Source: Bremerella volcania (GTDB lineage: Bacteria; Planctomycetota; Planctomycetia; Pirellulales; Pirellulaceae). From it: a stretch of 64,000 nt of DNA. The stretch spans positions 3,596,001 through 3,660,000 of the forward strand of contig NZ_CP036289.1 of assembly GCF_007748115.1 (NCBI RefSeq), written 5' to 3'. The notes under the pieces were generated by a model, which was not told the DNA's origin, made no database searches, and saw only the letters and a list, made by a program, of their open reading frames with translations. The translations under genes and the position numbers were made by a program. Shown one piece after another: positions 10,869-59,742 of this stretch; positions within the stretch are counted from its first letter, which is position 1; the number at the start of each line of letters is the position of its first letter.

Positions 10869-10874
10869 GTTCTA

Positions 10875-11612
10875 TCAACCGCGGCGCGCGTTGCGGTAGT
10901 CGCGCGGCGACATCCCGGTCGCGCGGCGAAACTGCCGCGTGAAAGCGCTTTGATCCGAGTAACCGGCCTGCATGGCGATGCTCGAGATCGACTCGTCCGA
11001 GGTCCTCAGGCGGCGCTGAGCCAGGTCGATGCGCAGCTTCAATAGCCACTGACCAGTCGTCAGACCGAACACGCGTCGCATGCGGCGGTCGAGTTGATAG
11101 GAGGACATTTCCGCAATAGTTGCCAGATCGGCGACGCTGGGTGGATCATGCAAATTGGCTTCGGCGAAGTTGATCGCGGCGATCACGTGCTGATATTCGT
11201 CGGTCGAAAGATCAGGCAGGCGAAGGTCCTGGGAAACCCCCACCAGTCCGACCACTTCGCCTTGCCGGTTTCGTAGCGGCAGTTTGCTGGTCAGACACCA
11301 CCCCACGTCACGGGTCGCATAGAAATGAAGTTCCAGCTGCCCCACCAATGGTTGCCCCGTTTCGAGCACTTTGCGGTCCTGGTCTTCAAAACTTTGCGCA
11401 AGTGGCGGACGTAACACCTCGCCTGGCAGGCGGCCCAGCAGGTCGCTCTTGCTTTGCGCTCCGCAGCGCTGGACGAGCGTGTTGTTGACGACCAGGTACT
11501 GCCCCTTGGTGTTTTTGATGAAAAACACAATGTCAGGGAGGTGGTCGAACAGCTCTTCGCCGGTGAAAGGCTTGTCCAATTGACCGAGAATATCTTGAAT
11601 TTCCGAGATCAT
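10875..11612 (-). CDS. PAS domain plus AraC-type DNA-binding regulator
   Basis: 245 residues. An N-terminal PAS sensor (about 18-130; LPDIVFFIKNTKGQYLVVN, then GEVVGLVGVSQDL) is joined to a C-terminal AraC/XylS double helix-turn-helix (about 140-243; QLDRRMRRVF, SISSIAMQAGYSDQSAFTRQFR). The PAS domain probably senses a small molecule. It is transcribed divergently from the lyase/oxidoreductase pair, with a near-perfect palindrome between them, so it most likely controls that operon. It is clearly paralogous to the regulator at 20222, which precedes putA. Its 3' end lies 6 bases from the convergent SHD1 gene. Confidence 0.9.
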   Translation of the reverse strand: MISEIQDILGQLDKPFTGEELFDHLPDIVFFIKNTKGQYLVVNNTLVQRCGAQSKSDLLGRLPGEVLRPPLAQSFEDQDRKVLETGQPLVGQLELHFYATRDVGWCLTSKLPLRNRQGEVVGLVGVSQDLRLPDLSTDEYQHVIAAINFAEANLHDPPSVADLATIAEMSSYQLDRRMRRVFGLTTGQWLLKLRIDLAQRRLRTSDESISSIAMQAGYSDQSAFTRQFRRATGMSPRDYRNARRG

Positions 11613-11654
11613 AGGCCCCTTCTTCGTATGTGCGCAAATTCAAGTCGCAATTGG

Positions 11655-11677
11655 GCCGTTTGTCAAGACAAAACGGC
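11655..11677. promoter_or_regulatory. Near-perfect palindrome in the divergent promoter region
   Basis: GCCGTTTGTC (11655-11664), AA, then GACAAAACGGC (11667-11677): 10-base arms with one extra A on the right. It lies between the divergent starts at 11612 and 11747 and is a candidate operator, though AraC proteins more often bind direct repeats. Confidence 0.5.
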
Positions 11678-11746
11678 TGCCGGAAGGGTAATATCAGGGA
11701 AAGATCGAATCTACCTCCGGCCTTACCTTATTACCGAGTAGCGCTA

Positions 11747-12694
11747 GTGAACGATAAATCGCAAGTTTTCCGCGGCTGTATTCCGGCACTCATGACACCC
11801 TGCCACGCCGATGGCACGCCCAACTTCGAGGCCCTGGTCGCCAAAGGGAAAGAGCTGATCGACGTCGGCATGTCGGCAGTCGTTTATTGCGGTTCGATGG
11901 GAGACTGGCCCCTGCTGACCGACGCCCAGCGTCAGGAAGGGGTTCGCCAGTTGACCCAAGCAGGCGTGCCGGTGGTTGTTGGAACCGGGGCTCAGAACCC
12001 AAAGCTCGCTGCAGTGCACGCCGCGCATGCGAAGCAGGTGGGGGCCGCTGGCTTGATGGTGATTCCTCGCGTCCTTTCCCGCGGCACGTCGAAGCTTGCC
12101 CAGCGCGATCACTTCTCGGCCATTCTCACCGCGGCTGGCGACTTGCCGGCGGTGATCTACAACAGTCCCTACTACGGCTTTGAAACGAAAGCCGATTTGT
12201 TCTTCGACCTGCGACGCGAGTTTTCAAACCTGGTTGGGTTCAAGGAATTTGGCGGAGCAACCTCGCTGACCTATGCCGCCGAACATATCACCGGAACCAA
12301 CCCTGACCTGGTGTTGATGGTGGGTGTCGATACGCAGGTCTACCACGGTTTTCTCCGCTGCAACGCCAAGGGAGCCATCACCGGCGTTGGTAACGCGCTG
12401 CCCAAAGAGATTTTGCGACTGGTCGAGTTGTGCGAGAAGGGAGCCGCCGGCTGTGCCCAATCGCGCAAGCTGGCCTGGGAACTGAACGAGGCCCTGACCG
12501 TTCTGTCGACCTTCGACGAGGGCCCCGACCTGGTGCTGTATTACAAGTATTTGATGGTCCTCGAAGGGAACTCTGAGTACGAACATCACTTCAACGAAAC
12601 CGACAAGCTGAGCCCCAGCCAGCGCGACTACCTGAAAGCTCAGTGGGAACTTTTCCGCAAGTGGTGGGATTCGTGGCCGGGCTCGCAAGGTTAG
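11747..12694 (+). CDS. DHDPS/N-acetylneuraminate lyase family protein (probable pyrroline-hydroxycarboxylate deaminase or related lyase)
   Basis: 315 residues from GTG 11747; the open frame extends upstream to 11630, but family similarity begins at FRGCIPALMTPC just after this GTG. It is a (beta/alpha)8 class I aldolase-type enzyme: the Schiff-base lysine is Lys166 in VGFKEFGG and the catalytic tyrosine Tyr138 in YNSPYYG. The usual GTTGE phosphate or carboxylate loop is GSMGDWP here, so it is not canonical DapA. It is followed 37 bases later by a DadA-type amino-acid dehydrogenase, a pairing found in trans-4-hydroxyproline degradation, where the lyase deaminates pyrroline-4-hydroxy-2-carboxylate. 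Sialic acid lyase is a weaker alternative, given the symporter fusion at 15906. Confidence 0.8.
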   Translation: MNDKSQVFRGCIPALMTPCHADGTPNFEALVAKGKELIDVGMSAVVYCGSMGDWPLLTDAQRQEGVRQLTQAGVPVVVGTGAQNPKLAAVHAAHAKQVGAAGLMVIPRVLSRGTSKLAQRDHFSAILTAAGDLPAVIYNSPYYGFETKADLFFDLRREFSNLVGFKEFGGATSLTYAAEHITGTNPDLVLMVGVDTQVYHGFLRCNAKGAITGVGNALPKEILRLVELCEKGAAGCAQSRKLAWELNEALTVLSTFDEGPDLVLYYKYLMVLEGNSEYEHHFNETDKLSPSQRDYLKAQWELFRKWWDSWPGSQG

Positions 12695-12731
12695 TTTCCA
12701 CCCGCGTCAATGCTTCGTTGGACAGTGCTCC

Positions 12732-13994
12732 ATGATTACGGCCTCGCATCCTGAAAGTGTGCTGATTGTTGGTTCCGGTATTGTAGGAATCGCTTGTGCG
12801 CACTATTTATCGAAACAGGGATTGAAAGTCACCGTGATCGATCGCGGCACGATCGCGGGTGCCTGTTCGCATGGGAACTGCGGCTACATTTGCCCTAGCC
12901 ACGTGTTGCCGTTGACCGAGCCAGAGGCCATTCGCACGGCGGCGAAGTCGCTCTTGCAACCCAACGCCCCGTTTCGTGTGAAGCCTCGCTTCAGTCCGGC
13001 GATGTGGAACTGGATGTGGCAGTTCGCCCGCCGCTGCAATCACCAGCAGATGCTAACCGCTGGCGCGGCGCTCAAGTCGATCCTGGATGCTTCGATGACC
13101 GAGTACCGCCGACTGGTCCAGGAAGAGTCGCTCGACTGCGAGTGGAAAGAAACCGGTCTTCTGTACGTGCTTCAGACCAAGAAGGGAATGCGCTCGTTCG
13201 TCGAGACCGATCGGTTTCTGACCGATCACTTCGGCGTATCGGCGCAGCGAATCGACGGCAGTGAGCTTTCCAAGTTCGATCCCGCTTTGAACGATAACCT
13301 GGCCGGGGCGTTTCACTATACAGGCGATGCATCGGTTCGTCCTGATCGCCTGAATGCTGATTGGGTAGCCAAGCTGAAACAGCGCGGCGTCACGTTTCTG
13401 GAAAATTGCGAACTGCAGCACATCGAAAAAGAGAAAGGCCGGATCGTGTGCTTGCAGACGTCTCAGGGCCAGCTTGAAGCCGATCAGTTTGTGATCGCGA
13501 CAGGTGCCTGGAGCACGCGGCTGGGCAAGTCCTTGGAGTGCCGCATTCCGATTGAGCCAGGCAAGGGATACTCGGTTACGATGTCGCGGCCGGCTCCCTG
13601 CCCCAAGTATCCGATGCTTCTGCCGGAACACAAAGTGGGTGTCTCGCCGTTTGAAGGAGGCTACCGTTTGGGGTCGATGATGGAGTTCTGCGGCTACGAC
13701 GAGTCGATCCCTGAGAAGCGCATTCAGCAACTGCGTCAATCGGCCACGCCCTATTTGCGGACCCCGGACACCAAAGAGACGCAAGCAACCTGGTACGGCT
13801 GGCGGCCGATGACTTGGGATAGCTTGCCGATCATTGGGCAGGTACCTCGACTGCAGAACGCTTACCTGGCGACCGGGCACAACATGCTCGGTCTGAGCAT
13901 GGCCACGGCGACCGGGCGACTGATCAGCGAAATGATGACGCGACTGACTCCGCACATCGATCCCAAGCCGTACTCTCCCCTGCGATTTGCTTAG
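12732..13994 (+). CDS. DadA-type FAD-dependent D-amino acid (D-hydroxyproline?) dehydrogenase
   Basis: 420 residues with the DAO fold. The N-terminal dinucleotide-binding motif reads VLIVGSGIVGIACAHYL (about 10-26), followed by SHGNCGYICPSH, which resembles the DadA region around the flavin. QFVIATGAWS is the second FAD motif, and WYGWRPMTWDSLPIIG and TGHNMLGLSMATATG are the conserved C-terminal flavin contacts. It oxidises a D-amino or imino acid, passing electrons to the membrane chain. Next to the DHDPS-family lyase and a PAS-AraC regulator it is a good candidate for cis-4-hydroxy-D-proline dehydrogenase. The epimerase and the final aldehyde dehydrogenase of that pathway are not in the window. 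Confidence 0.85.
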   Translation: MITASHPESVLIVGSGIVGIACAHYLSKQGLKVTVIDRGTIAGACSHGNCGYICPSHVLPLTEPEAIRTAAKSLLQPNAPFRVKPRFSPAMWNWMWQFARRCNHQQMLTAGAALKSILDASMTEYRRLVQEESLDCEWKETGLLYVLQTKKGMRSFVETDRFLTDHFGVSAQRIDGSELSKFDPALNDNLAGAFHYTGDASVRPDRLNADWVAKLKQRGVTFLENCELQHIEKEKGRIVCLQTSQGQLEADQFVIATGAWSTRLGKSLECRIPIEPGKGYSVTMSRPAPCPKYPMLLPEHKVGVSPFEGGYRLGSMMEFCGYDESIPEKRIQQLRQSATPYLRTPDTKETQATWYGWRPMTWDSLPIIGQVPRLQNAYLATGHNMLGLSMATATGRLISEMMTRLTPHIDPKPYSPLRFA

Positions 13995-45757: not shown

Positions 45758-47209
45758 ATGGATGTCATGATATCGATTGATGAGGATTTCATCGCGGCGG
45801 CAGCTCCTAATGCAGCGGCAGCCAAGAATGGACGCGGGCTCGTACTGAAAAACAAATTCATCGCGCTGCATCACTCCGACGACAAATCGCTGCTGTTTGG
45901 CGAGTGTCAGGGAAGTGGCAAGACGCCGTATCTTTGCTCGGCCGACTTTACCAACCCCCAATCGGTCACCTATCGCTGCAGTTGCCCCAGCCGGCAGTTT
46001 CCCTGCAAGCACTCGCTAGGACTCCTATACGCCTACGTCGAAGGCAAGTCGTTCACGCCAAGCGAGGTCCCCGAGTCGCTACAGGAGAAGCGCGAGAAGG
46101 CCGCCGCCAGGGCCGAAAAGAAAAAAGTCGATGCGGCCAAGCCTCGCAAGGTGAACAAGTCGGCCTTGGCCAAAAAGATCAAAGCCCAGCTCGATGGCCT
46201 CGATCTGCTCGAAAAGCTGACGTTCGACCTGGTACGACTCGGCATTGGCAATATGAATGCCAAGTCGGCCAGCGAAATCGAGAAGCAGGCCAAGCTGTTG
46301 GGTAACGCTTATCTGCCTGGTGCCCAGTCGGCGCTGCACGATTACACCAAGCTCTTCTTCGACGAGGAGGAAGTCAAAACAACGGCCGCCCAGGAAGCCG
46401 TCTACAGCGAGGCCCTCGACCAGTTAGGACGGCTCCATTCACTGGTGAAACAAGGACGTTCTTATCTTCAGAACCGCCTGGACGATCCTGAGCTTGCGCC
46501 AGAAACAGAAACTTCGATTGCTGCCTGGCTAGGACACGCCTGGCAGCTTCGCGAGCTGAAAGATGCTGGCCTCGTGCAGTCCGACGTGCAACTCGTTCAA
46601 CTGGCTTTCAACAGCTACGACGATGTGGCCCGCCGCGAATGGGTCGATACGGGTACCTGGATGAATCTCAGCACGGGGGCCATTCAACTTACGCAAAACT
46701 ATCGTCCCTACTCGGCCGCCAAGCACATCAAAGCGGAAGACAGCTTCTTCCAGGTTGCCCAGGTTAGTGAGCTATGCGTCTATCCCGGCGATGTGAATCC
46801 GCGCATCCGCTGGGAAGGGATGACCATGCGACCGCTCGAAGCCAACGACTTCAAAAGGATTCGCAGCTTTGCGCACGACAGCTTTGCCGAGGTCATCAAG
46901 CAGGTAAAAAACCAACTCAAAAGTCCCTTGGCCGATAAGTTGCCGGTGTATGCGTTGAACTTCGATCGCATCGGCCGCGTTGGGGATCAACTGGTCGTTC
47001 AAGATTCCCAAGGACAGCGACTGGTTCTCACCGAAGTGGGTCTCGCCGAAGAGCCAAGTACCTGCAATCTTTTGCCCCTCTTGCCCTCTTCGCGGCTGGC
47101 TGGGCAGATTCTGATCGCTCGCTTTCGACATGACCTCGATACGCGCAAGCTACAGGTCAAACCGTTGTCGATCGTCACGTCCACGTCCATTGATCGCCTC
47201 ACGTACTGA
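45758..47209 (+). CDS. SWIM zinc-finger protein, first gene of the MoxR/VWA cassette
   Basis: 483 residues. The SWIM motif is complete: Cys74-x-Cys76-x6-Cys83-x-His85 in CSCPSRQFPCKH. A Lys/Ala/Glu-rich coiled-coil-like segment (about 105-145) separates it from a helical C-terminal half of unknown fold. SWIM fingers bind nucleic acid or protein. The gap to the HEAT gene is 35 bases, and all five genes to 53789 run in the same direction with overlaps or short gaps. Alternative start: ATG 45767. Confidence 0.85.
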   Translation: MDVMISIDEDFIAAAAPNAAAAKNGRGLVLKNKFIALHHSDDKSLLFGECQGSGKTPYLCSADFTNPQSVTYRCSCPSRQFPCKHSLGLLYAYVEGKSFTPSEVPESLQEKREKAAARAEKKKVDAAKPRKVNKSALAKKIKAQLDGLDLLEKLTFDLVRLGIGNMNAKSASEIEKQAKLLGNAYLPGAQSALHDYTKLFFDEEEVKTTAAQEAVYSEALDQLGRLHSLVKQGRSYLQNRLDDPELAPETETSIAAWLGHAWQLRELKDAGLVQSDVQLVQLAFNSYDDVARREWVDTGTWMNLSTGAIQLTQNYRPYSAAKHIKAEDSFFQVAQVSELCVYPGDVNPRIRWEGMTMRPLEANDFKRIRSFAHDSFAEVIKQVKNQLKSPLADKLPVYALNFDRIGRVGDQLVVQDSQGQRLVLTEVGLAEEPSTCNLLPLLPSSRLAGQILIARFRHDLDTRKLQVKPLSIVTSTSIDRLTY

Positions 47210-47244
47210 CGTCGCATACCCCAATTGGTTGGAGGAGTCTTCCG

Positions 47245-49059
47245 ATGAGTATCGCGGTTCTCGCCCAGGTCTACGACGAAGTACGTCGACTCTCAATCGC
47301 CGGCAGTAGCGTCGCCCCGGGTGACTTTCGTTTAAAGAAACTGATCGCCCCGCTCGAAAAGTCCGGCGAAAAGGCACCGGTTTTCAAGAAGGTCGCCGAA
47401 TCGGTCAGCAAAGTCATCGAAAGCAACGAAACCACTTCTGCCGAAGCACTGCTCGACTTGAGCACCCTGGTCAACGCCATCCTTTACACGCAAGGGGAAG
47501 TCGGTGCCGAAGGAGACCTGGAACCGGTAGAGCAGATCGGCGAAGGCATCCTCCCCAAACGGACGCCGGCCAGCTTGCTGAAATCGGTCGCCACGGCCCT
47601 GACGACCGCCGGCTCGGGGCGGCTGGAACTAGTCCAGGAGTCTCTCGCGCAAGATCCCTTCCCCGACCCACGGCTACTCGGGCCCGCCATCGATGCGCTC
47701 GATGGTTCCTACTACGAGGTTGGCGACCTGGTCGAGAAGGCCGTTCTCCCCCAGTACGGCAAGTCCATCGTTCCGATCGTGCTCGAAAAGTTCGACCGCA
47801 AAGGAGGGGCTGGCGATGCCCGGCGACTATCGCTGTTGCATCGCGTCGATCCTGAGGGAGCCGAATCGATCATTCATGAAGTGCTCGAGGACGGTTCGAG
47901 CGAGGTGAAAATCGTCGCGATCTCGAAGCTGCGCGATCCGAAGAGTGTTCCCTTTCTGATTGAACAATCGAAAGCCAAGGCGTCCAAAGTGCGCGACGCC
48001 GCATTCTCGGCTCTTGCTGAAATCGACAGCGACGAGGGCGCGAAGTATCTCATCGAGCGGATGAAAGAGAAAGGACATCTGAGGTCGATACGCGAAGGGC
48101 TCAAGAGCCGTCACCCAAAGGCCGTGAAAGTGCTGCTGGATGAAACGCGCGCGGCCTGGCAAACGCTGCTCGACACGAAGGAGACCGACAAGAAGGCGCA
48201 CGAGGCAGCCCACACTCGCCTGGTAACGCTTCTGTCGGCCCTCGAGCATCGCAGCGACAAGGAAACAGAGAAGCTTCTTCTCGAGCTGTTTCCGCAACGG
48301 GCTGCGATCACTAAGGCCGAAGGGAAACATGGCGCCAAGACATGTTCCGATTGTATCTTAGCCCGTATGTCGGAGTGCAGCGACAAAACGCGCGAATTGC
48401 TCATTGCCGAGCATGAGACCTACGAAGACTACGAACTGGCCATCGCCGCCCGAGCGGCCCTGCAACAAGATGACCCGGCCAAGTTCTACGACGTCTTCCA
48501 CGTCTATATCGAGAGCGGCAAAAACGCGAAAACCAAGAAGCGATCCGCTCAGTCGAAGGCCGAAGCGATCACCCAGGCAATCTGCAACGAGATAGGCTCG
48601 GTCTATCACTACTGGTACGAAATCATCAACCAAGAACGCGAGCAGGAAGTCGTCCGAAAACGCGACCAATTCGATCCTCGCTGGCTCGACCTGGCCGTCA
48701 AGCATAACAACATGGAATTGGTCTACGCGTTGGCTCGGCCCGATCACAAACCGGCTCACAAGGCGCTCGAGGCGGAACTCCAGAAACGCCTGAAGGCGAA
48801 ACGGGTCGACTATCACCTGATGGACTTCGTCCAGGCAGTCGTCCGCGCGAAGCACCCGGACTCGGCCGACCTGATCATTGAAACGATCCGAAATGCCAGT
48901 AAACGCGGCACCGGCTATTACGCATATGCCCTGGCCCGCTTGATTCCTGCGTTGGACAAAAGCGCACTACCGAAACTCGAGGCGCTCTTAAGCGAACTGC
49001 CTGACAACGAAGCCGACCGCTACGTGTTGGCCGTGGCCGAACTGAAGAACCGCCGCTGA
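47245..49059 (+). CDS. HEAT-repeat protein of the MoxR/VWA cassette
   Basis: 604 residues, no signal peptide. GGAGGAG at 47231-47237 with a 7-base spacing supports the start. About 180-340 and again toward the end there are helical repeats of HEAT/Armadillo type (SSEVKIVAISKLRDPKSVPFLIE, KASKVRDAAFSALAEIDSDEG, ALARLIPALDKSALPKLEALL). It is probably a scaffold for the neighbouring ATPase and VWA protein. The stop shares one base with the next in-frame ATG at 49059, though the likelier start of that gene is 49104. Confidence 0.85.
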   Translation: MSIAVLAQVYDEVRRLSIAGSSVAPGDFRLKKLIAPLEKSGEKAPVFKKVAESVSKVIESNETTSAEALLDLSTLVNAILYTQGEVGAEGDLEPVEQIGEGILPKRTPASLLKSVATALTTAGSGRLELVQESLAQDPFPDPRLLGPAIDALDGSYYEVGDLVEKAVLPQYGKSIVPIVLEKFDRKGGAGDARRLSLLHRVDPEGAESIIHEVLEDGSSEVKIVAISKLRDPKSVPFLIEQSKAKASKVRDAAFSALAEIDSDEGAKYLIERMKEKGHLRSIREGLKSRHPKAVKVLLDETRAAWQTLLDTKETDKKAHEAAHTRLVTLLSALEHRSDKETEKLLLELFPQRAAITKAEGKHGAKTCSDCILARMSECSDKTRELLIAEHETYEDYELAIAARAALQQDDPAKFYDVFHVYIESGKNAKTKKRSAQSKAEAITQAICNEIGSVYHYWYEIINQEREQEVVRKRDQFDPRWLDLAVKHNNMELVYALARPDHKPAHKALEAELQKRLKAKRVDYHLMDFVQAVVRAKHPDSADLIIETIRNASKRGTGYYAYALARLIPALDKSALPKLEALLSELPDNEADRYVLAVAELKNRR

Positions 49060-49103
49060 TGACATCGTTCACATCCAACTCACCCCATAGCAAGGATCCT
49101 CCC

Positions 49104-50228
49104 ATGGCGAAGAAGTCGACTTCCTCCGCCGCGAACAAGACGGACTCAAGCGGCGATCTTCGCGCTCCGGCCGAACAGATGTTTGCCGAAGAGATCGAGG
49201 CTTTGATCAAGGAAGACAAGCACGACAAACCACCAGGCTGGAAGATGTCGGCCAGGGCCGTGCATACGTACATCTGCGGTGGCAAGGCCGGCAAGCTCGA
49301 CATTTCTCCCAAGTACATTGGGCACAACCGCCTGGTCGAGATTGCAATCGCCACGCTTGTGACCGATCGAGCACTGCTGCTGATTGGTGAGCCCGGCACG
49401 GCCAAGAGTTGGCTCTCGGAACACCTTACGGCCGCCATCAATGGCGATTCCACCAAGGTGGTTCAAGGCACCGCCGGCACCACCGAAGAACAGGTCCGGT
49501 ATACCTGGAACTACGCGATGCTCATCGCCCATGGCCCCAGCAGGGAAGCATTGATCAAAAGCCCCATCTTCCGCGCGATGGAAAGCGGCAGCCTGGCTCG
49601 GTTCGAGGAAATCACGCGCTGCGCGTCTGAGGTCCAGGACGCGATGATTTCGCTTCTATCCGAAAAGCGGCTTTCCGTTCCTGAACTGGCGGTCGAAGTC
49701 CCGGCCCAAAAAGGGTTCTCGGTGATCGCGACCGCCAACACGCGCGATCGCGGCGTGAACGATATGTCGGCGGCTCTCAAACGGCGATTCAACATCATCG
49801 TCCTTCCCACCCCCAGTTCGATCGAAACCGAGATCGAGATCGTCGGAAAGCGGGTCCAGGAACTTGCGTCGAACCTGGCCCTTAAATCGGAATTGCCGGC
49901 CACCGATGCGATCGAGCAGGTCGTGACCATCTTCCGCGAACTGCGCAGCGGGCAGACCCTTGATGGCAAGAATAAACTGAAGTCCCCATCCGGGGTTCTT
50001 TCTACGGCGGAAGCCATTTCGGTGCTGGCTAACAGCATGGCCCTTTCCGCCAGCTTCGGCAGCGGCCGCGTTTCCGCCGAAGACATCGCCGCAGGCCTGC
50101 AGGGCGCGGTGGTGAAAGACGAAGAGAAAGATCGCATCGCCTGGCAAGAATACCTGACCAACGTTCTAAAGAAGCGAGGCTCGGACTGGCGGCCGCTTTA
50201 CAAAGCCTGCTCGGAGCATAATTCGTGA
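49104..50228 (+). CDS. MoxR-family AAA+ ATPase
   Basis: 374 residues from ATG 49104, preferred because AAGGA lies 7 bases upstream; ATG 49059 would add 15 residues and couple it to the HEAT gene. Walker A GEPGTAKS (95-102); the Walker B strand ends FEEITRC with Phe167-Glu168-Glu169 instead of the usual Asp-Glu. Sensor 1 is in VIATANTRDRG, and the arginine-finger/sensor region is ALKRRFN. MoxR ATPases act as chaperones, usually with a VWA partner, supplied here by the gene at 52587. The end overlaps the GTG start of the DUF5682 gene by 4 bases. Confidence 0.9.
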   Translation: MAKKSTSSAANKTDSSGDLRAPAEQMFAEEIEALIKEDKHDKPPGWKMSARAVHTYICGGKAGKLDISPKYIGHNRLVEIAIATLVTDRALLLIGEPGTAKSWLSEHLTAAINGDSTKVVQGTAGTTEEQVRYTWNYAMLIAHGPSREALIKSPIFRAMESGSLARFEEITRCASEVQDAMISLLSEKRLSVPELAVEVPAQKGFSVIATANTRDRGVNDMSAALKRRFNIIVLPTPSSIETEIEIVGKRVQELASNLALKSELPATDAIEQVVTIFRELRSGQTLDGKNKLKSPSGVLSTAEAISVLANSMALSASFGSGRVSAEDIAAGLQGAVVKDEEKDRIAWQEYLTNVLKKRGSDWRPLYKACSEHNS

Positions 50229-52573
50229 GCTGGCAGATCCCAGTCTTCGGCGTACGTCACCTCTCACCGATGGGAGCCTGGCAGCTGCGCGCCTATCTCG
50301 ACGAGATACGCCCCGAGGTGATTCTCGTCGAAGGGATCGACGATGCCACGCCGCTGGTCGGCGATATGACTCGTAAGACGACACATCCCCCGATCGCGAT
50401 CCTGGCCTATACCGATACGCTCCCTGTTCGGACGATCGTCACCCCCTTTGCCCGGTACAGCCCCGAATACCAGGCCATCCTTTGGGCAGCTGAAAATAAG
50501 GTCGAGGCCCAATTCTTCGATCTTCCGTCGGAATGTTTCCTTGGTTTGATCGACGCCGAATACGAACGGCGCGACAAGGAGCGGCGCGAGGCGTTGGAAG
50601 CGGCTGAAAAGGAAACAGCAGAGACTGAGTTCTCCGACCCGGATGAGATCGCCACGCCACTCGATCAGCCCAAGCTTTCGCTTTACCAGCGCGTGGCCAG
50701 GCAGGCTGGCGAAACCGACTTCGAGACCTATTGGGAACGCCACTTCGAGCACAACCTGGCTCAGGGAAGCTACCGCGGTTCCTCGTACGAATTCGGGGCC
50801 GCCGTGCGTGACCTGGAAGAAGCCCAACCGCATTGGCGGGCCGAGAACCTCGTTCGCGAGGCCTACATGCGTCGTCGCATTCAACAGACCATCGACGATG
50901 GCACGCCACCGGAAAAGATCGTTGCCGTTGTGGGTGCATTTCATGCCCCAGTGCTGCGTGGCGATCTACCAGCAATGACCGACGAGGAACTGGCTTCGCT
51001 GCGTCGCCGATCGAGCAAACTCACGTTGATGCCCTACTCCTACTTCAAGCTTTCCTCGCAGTCTGGCTATGGGGCTGGCAATCGGGCGCCGGCCTATTTC
51101 GAGTTGCTTTGGCGATCGCTTAACGAAGGAAACGTTCGCGCGCTCTCGCATCGTTATCTATCGCAGGTTGCTACCAATTTAAGAAACGCAGGCACGCACC
51201 GCTCGACGGCTGAGGTCATCGAGGGGGTTCGCTTGGCCGAGACCCTCTCGGCACTCAACGGAGGGCATGCTCCTACCTTGACCGATCTACGCGACGCGGC
51301 GGTCACGCTGCTTGGCCACGGAGAACTGACCGCCGTGAAGGATGCGTTGGTACGGGTCGATGTGGGAACCGAGATCGGTGAATTGCCGGAGGGGGTCAGC
51401 CAGACGTCGATCCAAGCCGACTTCGAACGCGAACTGAAGCGGCTCAAGCTTTCAAAATACAAGACCGCCGTCCAGCAGACGCTGGATCTCGATCTGCGTG
51501 AAAATCGCCAGGTATCGAGTGAAGAAGCCGCGTTCCTGGACCTCAATCGGTCGTCCCTGTTTCATCGTCTCAGGATGCTCGATGTTCCCTTTGCCACGTG
51601 GAATCATACGCGTCAACAGTCGACCACGTGGGCCGAACGGTGGGTGGTGCAGTGGACGCCTGAAAGCGAGATTGCCTTGGTTGAGGCCGTGCTGGAAGGA
51701 GAAACGATCCTCCTGGCGACCGCGTTCCGCTTCAACACGCTACTGGAAAAGAGTCGCACAATCGCCGATGCCGCCAAGCTGGTCAACGATGCTTGCCAGT
51801 GCGGAATGATGGAAGCCATGGACCAGGCCCGGCAACGGCTGCAAGAGCTATCGTCCGGTACGTCTGACTTTGTGGCCATTGCTCGGGCAGCGTTTGAGTT
51901 GGCCCAGGTCGTACGCTACGGTAACGTCCGCCGCTTTGATCCCGAACCGCTGATTCCCTTGATTGAGGAACTCTTCGTTGAGGCCTCGCTGGCACTTTAC
52001 TCGGCCGCTAATTGCGACGACAGTGCCGCCGCGAGCCTGCTGGAAGCGATCGACCAGGTGAATCGTGTCGGGTTGGAATTCGCCGAACGGGTCGAAGAGA
52101 GTCTTTGGACCGATCGCCTGCAACAACTGGCCGACTCCGACGATCGCAATCCGCTTTTATCCGGTTACGCGTGTGCTTTATTACTGGAACGCGGACTGAT
52201 TCCCAACGAGGCCCTGTCGCGGGAAGTCTCGCGGCGATTGTCGCCTGGTGTTCCGGCCGACCTGGGAGCCGGCTGGTTCGAGGGGCTTGCCCAGCGCAAC
52301 CGCTACGCCTTGTTGGCGCGGCAAACACTGTGGGAGCAACTCGCCGAGTACGTGGCTTCGCTGGATGATGACCAATTCAAACGGGCACTCGTCTTCCTCC
52401 GCCGAGCTTTCGCCCAGTTTCTCCCTCGCGAACGACGTCAGATTTGCGAGAACCTGGCAGAACATTGGGGGCTCAATCGGGATGAGACCGCAGAGCTTCT
52501 GGAAGCTCCGCTGAGCGATGAGGAAGAAGAAAAACTCTCGGATCTGAACGAATTCGACTTCGACGACTTTTAG
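50225..52573 (+). CDS. DUF5682-family protein of the MoxR/VWA cassette
   Basis: 782 residues from GTG 50225; GGAG lies 8 bases upstream and the GTGA overlap couples it to the ATPase. The N-terminus PVFGVRHLSPMGAWQL, VILVEGIDDATPL, and VVGAFHAPVL near residue 240 resemble the metal-site strands of the TraB/ChaN/EreA-like fold, to which DUF5682 may belong. The C-terminal two-thirds is helical and unknown. DUF5682 genes are found beside MoxR and VWA genes in many bacteria. Enzymatic activity unproven. Confidence 0.8.
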   Translation: MSWQIPVFGVRHLSPMGAWQLRAYLDEIRPEVILVEGIDDATPLVGDMTRKTTHPPIAILAYTDTLPVRTIVTPFARYSPEYQAILWAAENKVEAQFFDLPSECFLGLIDAEYERRDKERREALEAAEKETAETEFSDPDEIATPLDQPKLSLYQRVARQAGETDFETYWERHFEHNLAQGSYRGSSYEFGAAVRDLEEAQPHWRAENLVREAYMRRRIQQTIDDGTPPEKIVAVVGAFHAPVLRGDLPAMTDEELASLRRRSSKLTLMPYSYFKLSSQSGYGAGNRAPAYFELLWRSLNEGNVRALSHRYLSQVATNLRNAGTHRSTAEVIEGVRLAETLSALNGGHAPTLTDLRDAAVTLLGHGELTAVKDALVRVDVGTEIGELPEGVSQTSIQADFERELKRLKLSKYKTAVQQTLDLDLRENRQVSSEEAAFLDLNRSSLFHRLRMLDVPFATWNHTRQQSTTWAERWVVQWTPESEIALVEAVLEGETILLATAFRFNTLLEKSRTIADAAKLVNDACQCGMMEAMDQARQRLQELSSGTSDFVAIARAAFELAQVVRYGNVRRFDPEPLIPLIEELFVEASLALYSAANCDDSAAASLLEAIDQVNRVGLEFAERVEESLWTDRLQQLADSDDRNPLLSGYACALLLERGLIPNEALSREVSRRLSPGVPADLGAGWFEGLAQRNRYALLARQTLWEQLAEYVASLDDDQFKRALVFLRRAFAQFLPRERRQICENLAEHWGLNRDETAELLEAPLSDEEEEKLSDLNEFDFDDF

Positions 52574-52586
52574 CAGGACGCAGCTG

Positions 52587-53789
52587 ATGGATGCAGAACA
52601 ACTCGCACGCTGGCGTCTGATTCTCGGGGCAGCCTCGCAGGAATCGCTCGGCGGTATGGGGCCTGGCTGCAGCTTGTCGGCTGAGCAGATGGAAATGGAC
52701 GCCGCCCTGGCAGAGATCTACGGCGGCGGCGACGAAGAGCTTTCTCAGGAAGACTGGGCATCCGGAGAGAAGAAAGTGGGACATGGCCCTTCCAAGGGTC
52801 GCGTTACGCCGAAGGTTGCCAAATGGCTCGACCAGATTCGGAACTTCTTTCCGACGGACGTGGTGACCTTGATCCAGCACGATGCCATCCAGCGGCGCGG
52901 GATGAAGGAACTGCTGTTTGAGCCAGAGATTCTTTCCAAGGTCGAGCCCTCGCTGGACCTGGCGAGCACCGTGCTCGAACTAAAGAACCTGGTACCCGAG
53001 AAAGCGAAAGAGGCGGCTCGGGATTTGGTACGAACCGTTGTGGAAGACATTCGCCGCCGTCTGGAACAGCGTTTTGTCCAAGCGGTTCGCGGAGCACTCA
53101 ATCGAAATCGGCATTCCCCTTTTCGCAGTTTGCCGAATCTCGATTGGACGCGAACCATTCGACAGAACATCAAGAATTACAATCCGACGCTCAAAACGAT
53201 CATCCCCGAGCAAATCTCGTTTTTCAGCCGACAGCAGCGGCAAAATGACTGGAACATCATCATCGCGATGGACCAGTCAGGGTCGATGCACTCGTCCCTC
53301 ATTTTCGGCGGCATCATGGGAGCGATCCTGGCCAGCATGCCGGCCGTGGAAACGCACGTAGTGGCGTTCAACCATGAAGAAGTCGTCGACCTGACCGAGC
53401 ATTGTCACGACCCGGTCGATCTGCTCTTCGGCGTTCAGCTAAGCGGAGCCGAGGACTATTGGATGGCAACCAGTTACTGCGAGCGTTTCATGCACACGCC
53501 TGACAAGACGCTGTACATTGTGTTGGGTGACCTGTACGACACAAGCCCCAACGAAAACCGTTTCGTCCGCAAGATGGAGGGGCTTTTGGAAGGAGGTCTC
53601 AAAGCGATCGGCCTTCTGGCCATTTCCGATCAAGGCAAGCCCTCGTACAACGAAAATCTGGCCAACAAGCTGGCGAGACTGGGCATGCCCTGCTTTGCCT
53701 GTACGCCTAACCGCCTGCCGGACATGCTTGAGGCCGTCTTGCGTGGCAACGATCTAAAGAAGTTCGCCGAGACAGCAACCGACAAGTAG
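52587..53789 (+). CDS. VWA-domain protein (CoxE-like) of the MoxR/VWA cassette
   Basis: 400 residues. The N-terminal half is helical. The VWA domain (about 222-385) has MIDAS motif DQSGSM with Asp229, the Thr-containing loop MATSYC, and GDLYD with Asp315, so metal binding looks intact. It is preceded by only 13 bases after the DUF5682 stop. VWA proteins commonly work with MoxR ATPases as metal-dependent adaptors. It is the last gene of the cassette, followed by a 258-base gap. Confidence 0.88.
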   Translation: MDAEQLARWRLILGAASQESLGGMGPGCSLSAEQMEMDAALAEIYGGGDEELSQEDWASGEKKVGHGPSKGRVTPKVAKWLDQIRNFFPTDVVTLIQHDAIQRRGMKELLFEPEILSKVEPSLDLASTVLELKNLVPEKAKEAARDLVRTVVEDIRRRLEQRFVQAVRGALNRNRHSPFRSLPNLDWTRTIRQNIKNYNPTLKTIIPEQISFFSRQQRQNDWNIIIAMDQSGSMHSSLIFGGIMGAILASMPAVETHVVAFNHEEVVDLTEHCHDPVDLLFGVQLSGAEDYWMATSYCERFMHTPDKTLYIVLGDLYDTSPNENRFVRKMEGLLEGGLKAIGLLAISDQGKPSYNENLANKLARLGMPCFACTPNRLPDMLEAVLRGNDLKKFAETATDK

Positions 53790-53864: not shown

Positions 53865-54047
53865 CGGCTATTGGTTTGTCGGTAAAAGATTAGAACAAAA
53901 GTCTTTTCGCAAGATTTCGCTCTTTTAGAATAAGAGATAGGCGTAACTGCCCCATTCGCTAGTTTCGCCCTCCTTTTCACACCATCACCACATCAGACGT
54001 TTGCCGCCAGGAAGGTAGGCACCCCTTGGGGAAGGATGCGCTGCGCG

Positions 54048-56803
54048 ATGCCTGAAAATATCCGCATTCTCCTGATCGAAGACTCACCCAAAGAGGCTGG
54101 GCTGGTCGAGCGATATCTGCGCGAAGCGGAAGAGAACTTCTCGGTCGTTCACGTCGATCGTCTCGACACAGGTCTCGCCAAGCTAAAGGCCGGCCAGATC
54201 GACGTCATTTTGCTCGATCTTGACTTGCCCGACAGCCACGGCCTGGAAACCATTCGGTCGCTGCACGCCAAGTCGCCCCATTTGCCGGTCGTCGTCCTTT
54301 CCGATCGAGTCGATCGTGACTTAGCCGCCCGAGCCATTCAAGACGGCGCCCAAGATTGTCTTCCCAAGTCGAATGTCGATCCCGATTCGCTCACCCGATG
54401 CGTCCGCTACGCGATCGAGCGAACGCATCGCCAACTGGTCGAATCGACGCTGGAAAACTCGGAGGCCCGTTACCGCGGTCTCGTCAATTCGCTTCCCGTC
54501 TGCGTCTTGCAGAAGGACTTGGACGGAAGATTTATCTTCGCCAACCAGGCGTACAGCGACTTCACGGGGCACGTCGTCGAAGACATCCTGGGCAAGACCG
54601 ACTTCGACCTCTCGCCGCCCGACGTGGCGGAAAAGTTTCGCGAGGACGATCGCAAGGTGTCAGAGTCGGGCAAGCAATTCCGCGACATCGAGGTCAACAC
54701 GACCGATGGGCATACCTCGTGGGTCGAAGTCATCAAGTCCCCGATTCGCGACGCTCACGGAAACGTCGTTGGCACCCAGGCCATCTTCTGGGATGTTACC
54801 GAACGTCAAATGGCCGTCGACGCGTTGCTAAAAGCAAAGGAAGCCGCCGAAGAGGCCAATCGCGCCAAGAGCGAGTTTCTGGCAAACATGAGCCACGAGA
54901 TTCGCACGCCGCTCAACGCCGTCATTGGCATGGCCGAACTGCTGCTCGATACGTCCCTCACGCAGACGCAACGTGACTACCTGAAAATGGTGCACGAGTC
55001 GGGCGAGTCGCTTTTGTCGGTTATCAACGACATTCTCGATTTCTCAAAGATCGAGGCCGGCAAGCTCGACCTGGTCAGCAAACCATTCGACCTGCGTGAA
55101 ACCGTGGGCGATATGATGAAGCCGCTTGGCGTCCGGGCAGGCGGCAACGGCTTGGAACTGACATGCCATTTTGAATCGGACGTTCCGGCGGTGATTGAAG
55201 GAGATCCTCACCGGCTCCGCCAGATTGTCGTGAACCTGGTAGGCAATGCGATCAAATTTACCGAACAAGGCGAGATCGACTTCGATGTCTCGGTCGAGTC
55301 ACGAGACAACGGCAATGTCGAGCTTCATTTCCAGATCCGCGACACCGGCATCGGTATTCCGGAACACAAGCTGGGAACGATCTTCGAAGCTTTCGAACAG
55401 GCCGATTCAGGTTCGACTCGGCAGTACGGCGGAACTGGCCTGGGTTTGGCCATTTGTGCTCGACTCGTCGATTTGATGGGGGGCAAGATTTGGGTTGAAA
55501 GCCAAGTCGGGCACGGTAGCACGTTCCACTTCACGGCCCCTTTCCCTGTGACACGCGCCGATAGAGTACCGCACCCTCGGGCAGCCGCCCGCATCCAAGG
55601 CACCCGCGTACTGATCGTGGACGACAATGCCACCAACCGGACGATTCTGGATGAAATCGCACGAAGTTGGGGAATGCGAACGCAGCTGGCCGCCGATGCC
55701 GAAGAAGGCCTGATGCTTCTGAAAGAAGCCTATTCGATAGGCGACCCTCATGCGGTTTTGTTGACCGACGTCGAAATGCCCGGCAAGGACGGCATCGACC
55801 TGATCACCGCAATGCGTGACATCCCCAACTTGAAGGATACGCTGGTCATCGTACTCAGTTCCTCAGAACGCCCCACCACGCGGAAGCGGTGTGAAGACCT
55901 GAGAATCAGTTCCTTTCTGATGAAGCCGGTGAAACAGTCGGAACTATTCGATGCGATCATCGTGGCCCTTGGCGTTGCTTCGCCTGAGGATGAAAACGAA
56001 GTCAAGTCGATTGGAAGCCTACCAAAGATTCGCCCGCTCAAAGTTCTGTTGGCGGAAGACAACCGGGCCAACCAGCGCCTGGCGATCGCGCTGCTGGAAA
56101 AATGGGGCCACGACGTCACGCTCGCCGAATCAGGCAAGCAAGCCGTCGACCATTGGGAGCGCGACAAGTTCGATTTAGTCGTGATGGACGTGCAGATGCC
56201 GGAGATGGATGGCCTGCAGGCAACACGAATCATTCGCCAGCGCGAACAAGAGCGCGGCGGGCATGTACCGATAATCGCCATGACCGCGCACGCTCTGGCC
56301 GGCGATCGCGAGAAGTGCCTGGACGCCGGAATGGATGGCTACACGTCCAAACCGCTGCGAATCCAGGAATTGCATCAGGCAATTGCTCAGTTCTTCGCCT
56401 CAGATTCCCCTACCAAAGATCAGCAACAGCCTACGGTGTCGGCGGACGAGCCTCGGGTTGACTGGTCTCATGCGCTGCGGGCATGTGATGGTGACAAAGA
56501 TTTGTTCTTCGATCTGCTGCACCTGTTCCTGGAGGAAACACCAGAACTACTGGATGCGCTGGACAAAGCAATCGAAGAGGAGAATTACGAGGCCATCCAC
56601 CGCTCGGCTCATACGGTGGTCGGTTCGCTTCGTATCATTGGCCCTTCCGAAGCAGGCAACGTTGCCCTACAAATCGAGAAAGTAGCCCACCAAGGCACAG
56701 TCGACGGGGCCAGGGACCTCTCTCAGCAACTACGCAGCCATATCGATACGCTTTTCGAGGAAGCGTCTCACGTTGTTGAGGGCCGACAGACACTCCCCTA
56801 GCG
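54048..56803 (+). CDS. Hybrid sensor histidine kinase (REC-PAS-HisKA-HATPase-REC-REC-Hpt)
   Basis: 917 residues from ATG 54048, where similarity to receiver domains begins ([13 protein letters not shown]); ATG 54036 is also possible. An N-terminal receiver (about 1-120, [13 protein letters not shown]) precedes a PAS domain (about 135-255). The HisKA box has His283 in [12 protein letters not shown], and the ATPase region has [12 protein letters not shown] and DTGIGIP. Two more receivers ([12 protein letters not shown] with [24 protein letters not shown] with [12 protein letters not shown]) and a C-terminal Hpt domain ([14 protein letters not shown]) complete it. No transmembrane segment, so it is a cytoplasmic phosphorelay. 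No partner output regulator adjacent. Confidence 0.93.
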
Positions 56804-57006: not shown

Positions 57007-59742
57007 ATGCCTGAAGCGGAATGGGAGCGGCTTACTGCGGAGGCTCGTCGAGACGAGGGAGCAAATTGGCGGCGGTGGGGGCCCTACCTGGCGGAGCGAC
57101 AATGGGGCACCGTGCGAGAAAGCACGGTCAACGCCGAACCCTGGCTTAACTTCACCCACGAAGAGGCTCGATGGCGAGCCTATCGGTGGGGTGAGGACGG
57201 CCTCTTGGGCATTTCTGATCGGCAATGTCGTCTTTGCTTCGCATTGGCCCTCTGGAACGAGAAAGATCCCATTCTCAAAGAGCGTCTATTCGGGCTGACT
57301 GGCCCCGAAGGGAACCATGGCGAAGACGTTAAAGAGGCATACTACTACCTCGACTCGACCCCTACGCACTCTTACCTGAAGGCACTCTACAAGTATCCTC
57401 AGGCCGAATTCCCCTACCAACAGCTGCGAGACGAAAACGCTCGTCGAAACCGTCAAGAGCCGGAGTTCGAACTGACCGATACCTGCATCTTCGACGAAGG
57501 GCGCTACTTCGACGTCCAGGCCGAGTACGCCAAGGCAACCCCTGAAGACATTCTGATCCGGATCACCGTCTTCAATCGCGGACCGGATGAGGCACCCATT
57601 CACCTGTTGCCGACATGGTGGTTTCGTAACACTTGGGCTTGGGGCCCTACGCTGGAAAAGCCGGAAGCCAAACCGTACCTCTCGGAAGTCAGCCCCGATC
57701 AGCTCAAGGTCCGCCACGAAACCCTGGGCGACTATCGAATCTTCGTCGATGAAGGTCCTGGCGGCGAGACGCCGCCTTGGCTGTTCACCGAGAACGAAAC
57801 GAATACCTGGCGTTTCGAAGATGGCGAAAGCCGACGTCCTTCGTGCAAAGACGCATTTCACCTGGCGGTCGTCGATGGCATGGAAGGGGTCGTTAATCCC
57901 AAGCCCAGCGGCACGAAAGCTGCGGCACACTTTCAGTGCACTGTCCCTGCTGGGGAGTCGGTTCAGTTTCGCCTGAGGATCGCTCCTACCGGTGAACTTC
58001 CCGCGACCCCTTTTGGAGCCGAGTTCGAGGAAGTCTTCGCCCAACGTATCAACGAGGCTGATTGCTACGCCAGGTCGCGAGTTTCTTCCGGCTTATCGGA
58101 AGATGAACAAACGGTCCTTCGCCAGGCTGACGCCGGCCTTCTGTGGACCAAACAGTTTTACCACTACGTCATCCCGCGATGGCTGGAAAATGAAGGCAAT
58201 CCCAAGAAGAACGCCGACATAGCGATGCCCGGCGCGCCCAGTCCTCGCAATGCCGACTGGGGACACTTGTACAACAAGAACATCATCTCGATGCCTGACA
58301 AGTGGGAATATCCCTGGTATGCGGCATGGGATTCGGCGTTTCATTTGATACCGTTTGCCAAGATCGATCCCTTCTTCGCCAAGGATCAAGCGATCTTGTT
58401 CCTCCGCGAATGGTATATGCACCCCAACGGCCAATTGCCGGCCTACGAGTGGAACTTCAGCGATGTCAACCCTCCGGTGCATGCCTGGGCATGTTGGCGG
58501 GTTTACCAGATGACGGCTTCCAACGGCGACCGCGATCGTGTCTTCCTGGAACGCGTTTTCCAGAAGCTGCTGTTAAACTTCACTTGGTGGGTGAATCGCA
58601 AAGACATTCGTGGAAAGCATGTCTTCAGCGGCGGCTTCTTAGGGCTCGATAACATCGGGATCTTCGACCGCTCGAAACCGCTTCCCACCGGAGGACACCT
58701 GGAACAGGCAGACGGGACCGCCTGGATGGCCTTCTACAGCTCGAGCATGCTCTCGATCGCCTTCGAACTGGCCGATGGCAACCCGGCCTACGAAGACATG
58801 GCTTCCAAGTTCTTTGAGCATTACGTCTCGATCGCCGAGGCGATGAACAGTTTGGACGGGACGGGACTGTGGGACGAAGAAGACGGCTTCTATTACGACC
58901 ACCTGCATCTCGACGGAAAGAGCATCCCCTTGAAGATCCGCTCCATCGTGGGGCTGATTCCACTGCTGACCGTCGACGTGATCTTCGAGAAAACGATCGC
59001 CAAACTTCCCGCGTTTCGCAAACGCATGGATTGGTTTCTCAATTTCCGCCCGGAACTGACCAAGTTCATGACCTACATGGAGAAAGAACCGGAAGGGGAA
59101 AACGACGGGCATCGACTGCTGGCGATTCCTACCAAAGATCGCCTGATGCGGATGCTCCGATATTTGCTGGACGAAGACGAGTTTCTCTCCCCGTACGGAA
59201 TTCGATCCCTGTCGAAGTACCACGAAGAACATCCGTTTGAATACGAACTGCACGGCGAGCGACTTTGCGTAAAGTACTTGCCGGCCGAGTCCGACAGTGG
59301 GCTGTTCGGTGGCAACTCGAACTGGCGCGGACCAATCTGGTTCCCACTCAATTACCTGATCATCGAGGCGCTCGAACGATACCATCAGTTTTACGGCAAG
59401 TCACTGCGGGTCGAATGTCCGGCACGCAGCGGCAAGTACATGGATCTACAGCAAGTCGCTGACGAGATTCGCAAACGATTAGCCAAACTATTCTTGGCCG
59501 ATTCCGAAGGGGACAGACCCAGCTATGCTCGTACCGAAGTGCTGTTAAAGGACCCGCACTGGCGCGACTTGGTGTTGTTCTACGAGTACTTCGACGCCGA
59601 AACCGGCAAAGGCCTGGGCGCCAGCCATCAGACCGGCTGGACGGCGCTGATCTCTCCGATTCTGGGTACCCTCGCCTCACGCCGAAATGAAGCCGCCGCC
59701 GCGGCAACCAGCCCTAAGAAAACGCTGAGCAAGCAAACCTGA
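57007..59742 (+). CDS. GH63-like glucosidase (MGH1-type domain)
   Basis: 911 residues, no signal peptide, so it is cytoplasmic. The (alpha/alpha)6 catalytic region covers about 370-890 ([36 protein letters not shown]-type turns; [34 protein letters not shown]), after an N-terminal beta domain ([18 protein letters not shown]). Proteins of this size and type are annotated as glucosidases related to GH63, a family acting on alpha-glucosides including glucosylglycerate-type compatible solutes. The substrate cannot be read here. A hairpin lies just before its ribosome site. Confidence 0.85.

Follow-up and report, generated by a model that had tools for sequence, protein, structure and literature searches.

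The window considered here is a 64,000-nt stretch of the Bremerella volcania genome (RefSeq contig NZ_CP036289.1, positions 3,596,001 to 3,660,000), and its subject is a cassette of five co-directional genes on the forward strand, spanning window positions 45758-53789 with gaps of 35, 44, -4 and 13 bases. In order, the genes encode a SWIM zinc-finger protein, a HEAT-repeat protein, a MoxR-type AAA+ ATPase, a DUF5682 protein and a VWA protein (Table 1). All five Pfam family assignments pass the curated cut-off, so that the gene order, the spacing and the family labels given in a preliminary description of this DNA are borne out by coordinates and profile matches. The longest frame of the MoxR gene opens at 49059; because close relatives are 373-374 residues long, we have placed its start at 49104, which gives the gap of 44 bases.

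Table 1. Genes and protein features of the cassette, in window coordinates. A3, 63 type-A DUF5682 sequences; A1, 26 sequences of a broader set; the window is present in both (89 rows in total).
Feature	Position	Strand	Evidence
SWIM zinc-finger protein, 483 residues, distant relative of E. coli YehQ	45758..47209	+	Pfam SWIM, 6.4e-6
HEAT-repeat protein, 604 residues, exchangeable slot	47245..49059	+	Pfam HEAT_2, 5.4e-7, residues 212-276
MoxR-type AAA+ ATPase of the YehL kind, 374 residues	49104..50228	+	Pfam AAA_5, 2.2e-37
DUF5682 protein, 782 residues, relative of E. coli YehM	50225..52573	+	Pfam DUF5682, 6.6e-150
VWA protein, 400 residues, relative of E. coli YehP	52587..53789	+	Pfam VWA_CoxE, 3.9e-35
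SWIM zinc-binding motif CxC..CxH (CSCPSRQFPCKH, residues 74-85)	45977..46012	+	C74, C76, C83 and H85 invariant in 53 aligned sequences
Predicted OB-fold pair, residues ~273-473, possible nucleic-acid-binding part	46574..47176	+	AlphaFold2, Foldseek
Proposed Tiki/TraB/ChaN-like N-terminal domain of DUF5682 protein, residues ~1-290	50225..51094	+	Weak Pfam matches, hhalign
First GxxH, G9-H12	50249..50260	+	63/63 in A3; in A1, H 26/26, G replaced by P in 9/26
Conserved Glu E36, 24 residues past H12	50330..50332	+	63/63 in A3, 26/26 in A1
RExxM motif, R211-M215	50855..50869	+	R and M 63/63 in A3, 26/26 in A1
Second GxxH, G237-H240	50933..50944	+	63/63 in A3, 26/26 in A1
C-terminal all-helical solenoid of DUF5682 protein	51659..52552	+	Predicted helices 479-776 (AlphaFold2)
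MIDAS motif 1, DQSGS, D229-S233, intact	53271..53285	+	VWA alignments
MIDAS threonine position, here Glu (E289)	53451..53453	+	GGT in 91/103 rows, G-A-E in 12/103
MIDAS last Asp, D315, intact	53529..53531	+	Invariant in 45 aligned sequences

By sequence comparison, the cassette is related to the yehL-yehM-yehP-yehQ genes (yehLMPQ) of Escherichia coli. In BLASTP searches, the MoxR protein shares 41% identity with YehL over 355 columns (E 2.6e-86), the DUF5682 protein matches YehM, itself named a DUF5682 protein in RefSeq, at E 2.3e-24, and the VWA protein is 33% identical to YehP (E 1.4e-65). Plain BLASTP between the SWIM protein and YehQ is not significant (E 1.0), so this homology rests on the profile match obtained with hhalign (probability 96%, p 2e-9 over 379 columns). 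As in yehLMPQ, the genes for a YehL-type MoxR ATPase, a DUF5682 protein and a CoxE-type VWA protein are adjacent and co-directional; the DUF4132 (YehI) companion is absent from the window, which has the HEAT protein instead. The preliminary description was right about neighbourhoods in other bacteria but did not name yehLMPQ as a relative. The RefSeq annotation of strain K-12 names no function for these genes, which are widespread in E. coli. Among 14 control genomes, PF18934 was matched in those of E. coli and Deinobacterium chartae.

The ATPase scores barely above the bpMoxR cut-off (27.4 against 27 bits). Its Walker A sequence GEPGTAKS occurs in 98 of 114 aligned rows, the arginine-finger region A-x-x-RRF in all 114, and the Walker B region RFEE in 70, the pattern leaving the other 44 unmatched; Asp is usual at the position where RFEE has Glu. 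Against PDB sequences, the protein gave five matches at E<=0.001, all of them midasins (best E 3e-11). The MoxR family has been split into seven subfamilies, YehL among them (PMC3893208, available part).

The cassette is a conserved unit. We compared the best 80 of 571 confirmed stretches, picked from named genomes with the DUF5682 alignment A2 and hence biased towards the cassette type of the window. All five families are found in 67 of these 80 loci, in Planctomycetota, Paenibacillus, Clostridia, Bacteroidota and Verrucomicrobia, and the exact order SWIM-HEAT-MoxR-DUF5682-VWA in 61; of the other six, four have extra HEAT copies, one shows SWIM and HEAT in exchanged positions, and in L089 the full set is accompanied by a long overlapping frame. 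Of the 13 loci short of five families, seven end at a contig edge (L092, L132, L137, L138, L148, L151 and L159), while six miss parts despite long flanks (L091, L093, L094, L127, L136 and L150). The similar neighbourhoods in other bacteria that had been anticipated are thus real. Extra HEAT gene copies lie within the cassette in L074 (6324-7388), L102, L145, L147 and L154.

The same picture emerges from 294 genomes of the window's phylum, counted per whole genome and not per neighbourhood. DUF5682 is present in 31 of them. The type-A SWIM profile (type A being the window's arrangement) matches in 17, and 16 of these also carry DUF5682 (Fisher p 5e-17); a strong HEAT-profile match occurs in seven, each with DUF5682 (Fisher p 8e-8). 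The one genome with SWIM but no DUF5682 (G252) has a completeness of 68%, the two HEAT matches found outside DUF5682 genomes are weak and partial (E 1.5e-12 and 7.3e-11), and 15 of the 31 DUF5682 genomes show no match to the type-A SWIM profile, several carrying a YehQ-like form instead. We therefore rejected a chance assembly of neighbours (p 5e-17). Rare co-occurrence of the five families had been named beforehand as the result that would tell against the cassette; instead, they recur as a unit. The distance matrices of the five proteins correlate with r 0.78-0.96 over 69 sets, with permutation maxima of at most 0.16.

Within the genus of the window, the cassette sits between the same upstream gene and a kinase gene in four genomes (G000, which is the window's, G205, G297 and G298). 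In G294 and G300 these two genes adjoin, ~460 and ~290 bases apart, and the cassette is absent; in G296 and G299, other frames occupy the interval together with the glycoside-hydrolase gene that follows the kinase in the window. G295, 68% complete, counts for neither state. The flanking genes are conserved, and the cassette is thus gained or lost as a block. Other frames at the cassette site in two genus genomes (L167, 3558-8999; L166, 3209-5052) suggest that the site may be variable.

Among 40 loci of the phylum and closer relatives, the cassette takes several forms. Type B, identified in 10 of the 40 with the DUF5691 profile, consists of SWIM, a DUF5691 middle gene, MoxR, DUF5682 and VWA; two of its middle genes were confirmed as DUF5691 by Pfam scan, and one has a HEAT repeat above the cut-off. 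Type C has the order DUF4132 protein, MoxR, DUF5682, VWA, SWIM, as in E. coli yehI-yehLMPQ. Type D has MoxR, then a single DUF5682+VWA polypeptide, then a YehQ-like SWIM protein. The HEAT slot is thus exchangeable, being filled by a window-type HEAT protein, DUF5691 or DUF4132. The window's HEAT family and DUF5691 profiles align with a probability of 90% (p 1.8e-6 over 169 columns), while comparison of the same HEAT profile with YehI (probability 6%) did not show a relationship. On Deinococcus taeanensis and Rhizobium plasmids, all of type B is annotated; it also occurs on Hymenobacter radiodurans and Methylosinus plasmids, where the VWA gene is unannotated and was found by profile. In the Hymenobacter radiodurans plasmid (L233, 8980-11272), the annotation divides DUF5682 into three overlapping pieces, and the gene looks broken. 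One contig (L069, G279:C58, 1957-19499) carries a type C cassette with a DUF5682/VWA fusion and a type A cassette head to tail.

The MoxR AAA+, CoxE-type VWA and DUF5682 genes form the constant core of the cassette, and the SWIM and HEAT genes a second module. Seven of the 40 phylum loci (L054, L056, L069, L070, L076, L077 and L078), as well as L150 among the best 80, encode a fusion of DUF5682 with VWA. SWIM and HEAT form a single polypeptide in L051, its SWIM finger just under the Pfam cut-off; a protein of L051 (5383-7422) gave no Pfam match. In genome G024, a SWIM-DUF5691 pair lies ~350 kilobases (kb) from MoxR-DUF5682-VWA. The fusions and this split set together delimit the two modules and, with the correlated divergence, support the idea of a larger machine built on the MoxR-VWA pair. 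Elsewhere, a lone DUF5682 gene (G306) is accompanied by a 78%-identical MoxR gene that persists ~390 kb off.

A sixth constant component was sought and rejected, the largest clusters of flanking genes being present in only 17 (15 of them in Paenibacillus) and 12 of the 80 loci. Genes inserted in four clostridial copies and one Bacteroidota copy were likewise dismissed as a sixth part, since Pfam identifies them as unrelated (RtcB, HsdR_N-like, GNAT, PEBP, AAA-ATPase_like, TonB). Two clostridial loci, L145 (12313-14749) and L148 (4327-5532), carry an HsdR_N-like nuclease gene between DUF5682 and VWA, and L145 has an RtcB RNA ligase frame there as well. In L049 (12062-14202, type A), two extra frames of 606 residues (with a weak DUF4261 match) and 102 residues stand between HEAT and MoxR.

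The VWA protein had been described as having an intact metal-ion-dependent adhesion site (MIDAS), and this does not hold. The site is defined by the motif DxSxS-T-D (PMC13036017, available part). The window's protein retains DxSxS and the late Asp but has Glu (GAE) in place of the Thr of the usual GGT, so that the site is not intact and the complete motif of NorQD/CoxDE-type proteins is lacking in this protein. The 103 rows compared (Table 1) are unfused VWA sequences, among which W_VWA and L083 are the same gene and one GGT row (L123) is without the DxSGS pattern. The 12 GAE rows all belong to the window's phylum; L051 contributes one of them and type-A cassettes the other eleven. Searches with the VWA protein against PDB sequence profiles yielded nothing useful.

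The N-terminus of the DUF5682 protein is probably Tiki-like, judging from its conserved residues and profile matches. H12, E36, R211, M215, G237 and H240 are invariant in the 89 rows, in which the window is counted twice; the spacing from His to Glu is 24 in 89/89, and that from Met to the second His 24-26 in A3. The elements typical of the superfamily, that is, GxxH, Glu, Arg/Met and a second GxxH, thus occur in order and with similar spacing. TraB proteins (28 of 30 phylum loci) have GxxH, a Glu 26 residues later in 28/28, RxxxM in 24/28 and GxxH 24 past the Met in 18/28; ChaN-family proteins (29 of 30 loci) have GxxH, a Glu 28 later in 21/29 (up to 33), a Met, and GxxH 24 later in 12/29. 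EreC uses H50, E78, R261 and H289 (PMC7979712, available part).

In a Pfam scan of 37 DUF5682 N-termini, TraB_PrgY_gumN was the commonest family apart from DUF5682 itself (10/37 at E<=1, best 1.4e-4), followed by the ChaN family, Cofac_haem_bdg (4/37, best 0.0036); both are counted to the Tiki group. Three DUF5682 alignments compared by hhalign gave p 2e-4, 0.004 and 0.0006 against ChaN, and p 0.003, 0.008 and 0.003 against TraB. Reversed controls stayed at p>=0.09 and unrelated families (VWA, HEAT, SWIM, DUF5691) at p 0.12-0.63, while the accepted relatives TraB and ChaN reached p 1.7e-5 and a probability of 79%. The AlphaFold2 model of the protein has a mean predicted local distance difference test score (pLDDT) of 89.8, and PDB sequence profiles returned only weak, unrelated matches.

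The SWIM protein is predicted to end in a pair of oligonucleotide/oligosaccharide-binding (OB) folds. In its AlphaFold2 model (mean pLDDT 91.2), a helical middle part separates the SWIM region from two β-β-β-α-β-β units. At E<=0.001, Foldseek returned seven PDB matches, namely five HIN-type chains and two of the Oxytricha telomere-end-binding protein, with RPA70 just after this group; 4jbm, 3rn2 and 4jbk in the list we take to be HIN domains. HIN and RPA70 are tandem OB folds. PDB sequence profiles gave nothing useful for this protein. The WGR domains of type C cassettes are a further pointer to nucleic acid: when six DUF4132 proteins were scanned with Pfam, three had WGR domains and one HEAT repeats, E. 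coli YehI having neither, and WGR is described as DNA-binding (PMC7824862, available part).

The preliminary description also contrasted the cassette with its surroundings in lacking export signals. Indeed, a hydropathy scan found no strongly hydrophobic N-terminus in any of the five proteins, the peak value for a 15-residue segment being 0.37-1.16, against 2.28 in the upstream neighbour. The G+C content of the cassette lies inside the range of the surrounding DNA. No sigma-70-like promoter was detected (2.0 expected in shuffles), and we rejected an RNA element in the cassette, as Rfam gave no match at the gathering threshold. A Pfam scan found no family in the upstream neighbour gene. Downstream, window positions 54036-56801 encode a hybrid sensor kinase that combines PAS, HisKA and Hpt domains with three receiver domains; within the genus, its gene is conserved close to where the cassette sits. 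Positions 57007-59742 encode an MGH1-like/GH63-type glycoside hydrolase.

Given the gene set, the homologies and the fusions observed, we favour, at a probability of about 0.45, one cytoplasmic machine of the YehLMPQ type, in which a MoxR/VWA remodeller and a Tiki-like hydrolase would be aimed by a nucleic-acid-binding SWIM/HEAT arm, and whose likely job would be the removal or remodelling of DNA- or RNA-bound proteins under stress. By analogy, the MoxR hexamer would drive the VWA protein as NorQ drives NorD, where a finger of the VWA protein enters the MoxR pore and twisting of the partner has been proposed (PMC13036017, available part). The VWA protein may hold DUF5682, whose Tiki/TraB-like domain would be a hydrolase that the motor feeds or gates, with protein as its most likely substrate. 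The complex would be brought to nucleic-acid-bound targets by the SWIM/OB-fold protein together with the HEAT scaffold, and under stress, DNA damage for example, it would most likely remodel or remove proteins there. A bolder version, in which the MoxR ring and VWA adaptor drive DUF5682 as a Tiki-type peptidase, guided to nucleoprotein by the SWIM/OB/HEAT arm from E. coli to Planctomycetes, would make it an ATP-driven hydrolase of a new kind, and we regard it as doubtful; if true, there would be an AAA+ machine using a Tiki-type hydrolase. The Tiki-like motif order of DUF5682 and the OB-fold pair of the SWIM protein are newly proposed here, and both are directly testable.

Several leads from the literature bear on a stress role, each taken from the available part of its source. 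Depletion of DdrO strongly induces the Deinococcus radiodurans DUF4132 gene DRA0166, and the LexA regulon is said to include MolR (PMC8533742). Both yehH and yehQ appear among uncharacterised genes in a table on multiple stressors (PMC9501238), and yehQ, wild-type or mutated, among genes tested for butanol tolerance (PMC6442406). A crosslink suggesting a YehQ interaction (PMC8163845) was discarded as an entrapment-database match.

A number of observations weigh against the favoured reading. The changed MIDAS Thr weakens a NorD-like grip on the substrate in the window's clade. The Tiki-like motif is no proof of catalysis, because ChaN binds haem. The window's DUF5682 protein falls under the Pfam cut-off for TraB (16.6 against 26.8 bits, E 0.0076), and the spacing from Met to the second His varies between 19 and 27 in A1. 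The hhalign probabilities are 5-47% (the best, p 2e-4, being the 47%) and cover only ~30-65 columns around RxxxM-GxxH, one alignment reaching p 0.004 with ChaN and 0.008 with TraB. Full-length DUF5682 has no Foldseek match at E<=0.001, and the 50 matches listed are mostly solenoids, with importin/adaptin the best. The OB matches of the SWIM protein have low TM-scores (template modelling), ~0.2-0.4, for a matched range that Foldseek does not print. DRA0166 is linked to the cassette through its DUF4132 family, and plain vertical descent would likewise make the distances correlate. Moreover, DUF5682 occurs without adjoining MoxR or VWA genes in L127 and L136, the MoxR gene lies ~390 kb from DUF5682 in L075, and neither SWIM nor HEAT is nearby in L093 and L094. 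In L127 (Capnocytophaga periodontitidis, 9082-12756), the gene stands between RHS-repeat and DinB-family genes.

The preliminary description had left room for a role in stress or conflict. If the cassette served in conflict or against phages, MoxR and VWA would set the threshold at which a toxic DUF5682 hydrolase is released once the SWIM/OB protein senses foreign nucleic acid, after the fashion of the MoxR-vWA ternary systems. Conflict systems described earlier have MoxR-vWA pairs at their core (PMC7159879, available part). The spread of DUF5682 is patchy (the 31 of 294 phylum genomes; 13 of 40 relatives), within the genus the whole cassette is either there or missing next to the same genes, and neighbours of interest occur on plasmids: restriction-modification and PDDEXK genes in Iodobacter, a PDDEXK nuclease and a recombinase in Hymenobacter, and toxin-antitoxin, recombinase and transposase genes in Methylosinus. 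However, the five proteins gave a single match to PADLOC families (E 0.012), too weak for assignment to any of them; among 5426 E. coli genomes, 5301 contain yehLMPQ DNA and 5162 have more than 80% of its length, with 5320 of 5322 places chromosomal; only 36 of the 72,556 plasmid records and 1 of the 50,697 phage records encode a relative; and the Pfam scan of the five proteins showed no FtsH, beta-propeller or other ternary partner. These results speak against a typical mobile defence island, make a mobile phage-defence role less likely and leave the conflict system as a whole unlikely; of the two roles left open earlier, nucleic-acid-linked remodelling or stress is weakly supported.

DUF5682 might also be a catalytically dead, Tiki-like scaffold in a pure AAA+ remodeller resembling a small midasin and acting on ribonucleoprotein or nucleoprotein, as the midasin matches of the MoxR protein and the predicted helical solenoid of DUF5682 would suggest. 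A dead scaffold would not need the six invariant residues of the N-terminal motif, and we consider it improbable. Quite improbable, in our estimate, is a chaperone of the NorQD/CoxDE kind for metallo-cofactor insertion or enzyme maturation, with DUF5682 as a ChaN-like carrier of metal or haem. It would agree with the VWA_CoxE membership, with the Cofac_haem_bdg matches among the DUF5682 N-termini and with the proposal that NorQD inserts iron through MoxR-driven twisting of its VWA partner (PMC13036017, available part). Nevertheless, no known metalloenzyme gene adjoins the cassette in the window, its flanks being the Pfam-less gene and the hybrid kinase; the predicted OB folds, SWIM and WGR domains point to nucleic acid; and the MIDAS Thr is lost.

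The cassette is a conserved five-part gene set of the MoxR-VWA kind, as yet unexplained. Nothing that explains it was found in open papers, subscription papers lying mostly outside the search, so that a description may exist elsewhere; the open literature searched had no mention of DUF5682, DUF5691, DUF5724, PF18934 or PF18944, and the terms YehL and TraB are not used in the conflict-system paper (PMC7159879, available part).

Among known systems, NorQ/NorD, CbbQ/CbbO and RavA/ViaA likewise combine a MoxR ATPase with a VWA partner, and their described targets are nitric oxide reductase and respiratory complexes, with rubisco for CbbQO; unlike for the window, the available parts of the sources (PMC13036017, PMC3893208) mention no DUF5682, SWIM or HEAT partner. 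The MoxR-vWA ternary conflict systems share a MoxR-VWA core with further partners (PMC7159879, available part), whereas scanning the five proteins plus three neighbours with Pfam revealed no VMAP, inactive STAND, FtsH or VWA-fused beta-propeller, and hence no ternary component, although Pfam may not model each of these. With the Tiki/TraB/PrgY/ChaN/EreA-like superfamily, DUF5682 shares the order GxxH-E-RxxxM-GxxH and similar spacing; it differs in scoring below the Pfam cut-off in the window, in its long helical solenoid and in being encoded beside an AAA+ motor. The SWIM-DUF5691-AAA-DUF5682-VWA clusters of Rhizobium, Deinococcus, Methylosinus and Hymenobacter plasmids have the same five slots in the same order, but their HEAT slot is taken by DUF5691, distantly related to the window's HEAT protein, and two annotated plasmid clusters, Hymenobacter among them, have a small extra gene before DUF5682. 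In E. coli yehLMPQ, SWIM comes last and the DUF4132 gene yehI lies upstream, whereas the window's cassette opens with SWIM, has a HEAT protein lacking DUF4132 where E. coli has YehI, and carries a changed MIDAS Thr; the two share homologous MoxR, DUF5682 and VWA genes in the same order, with YehQ as the SWIM homologue by profile.

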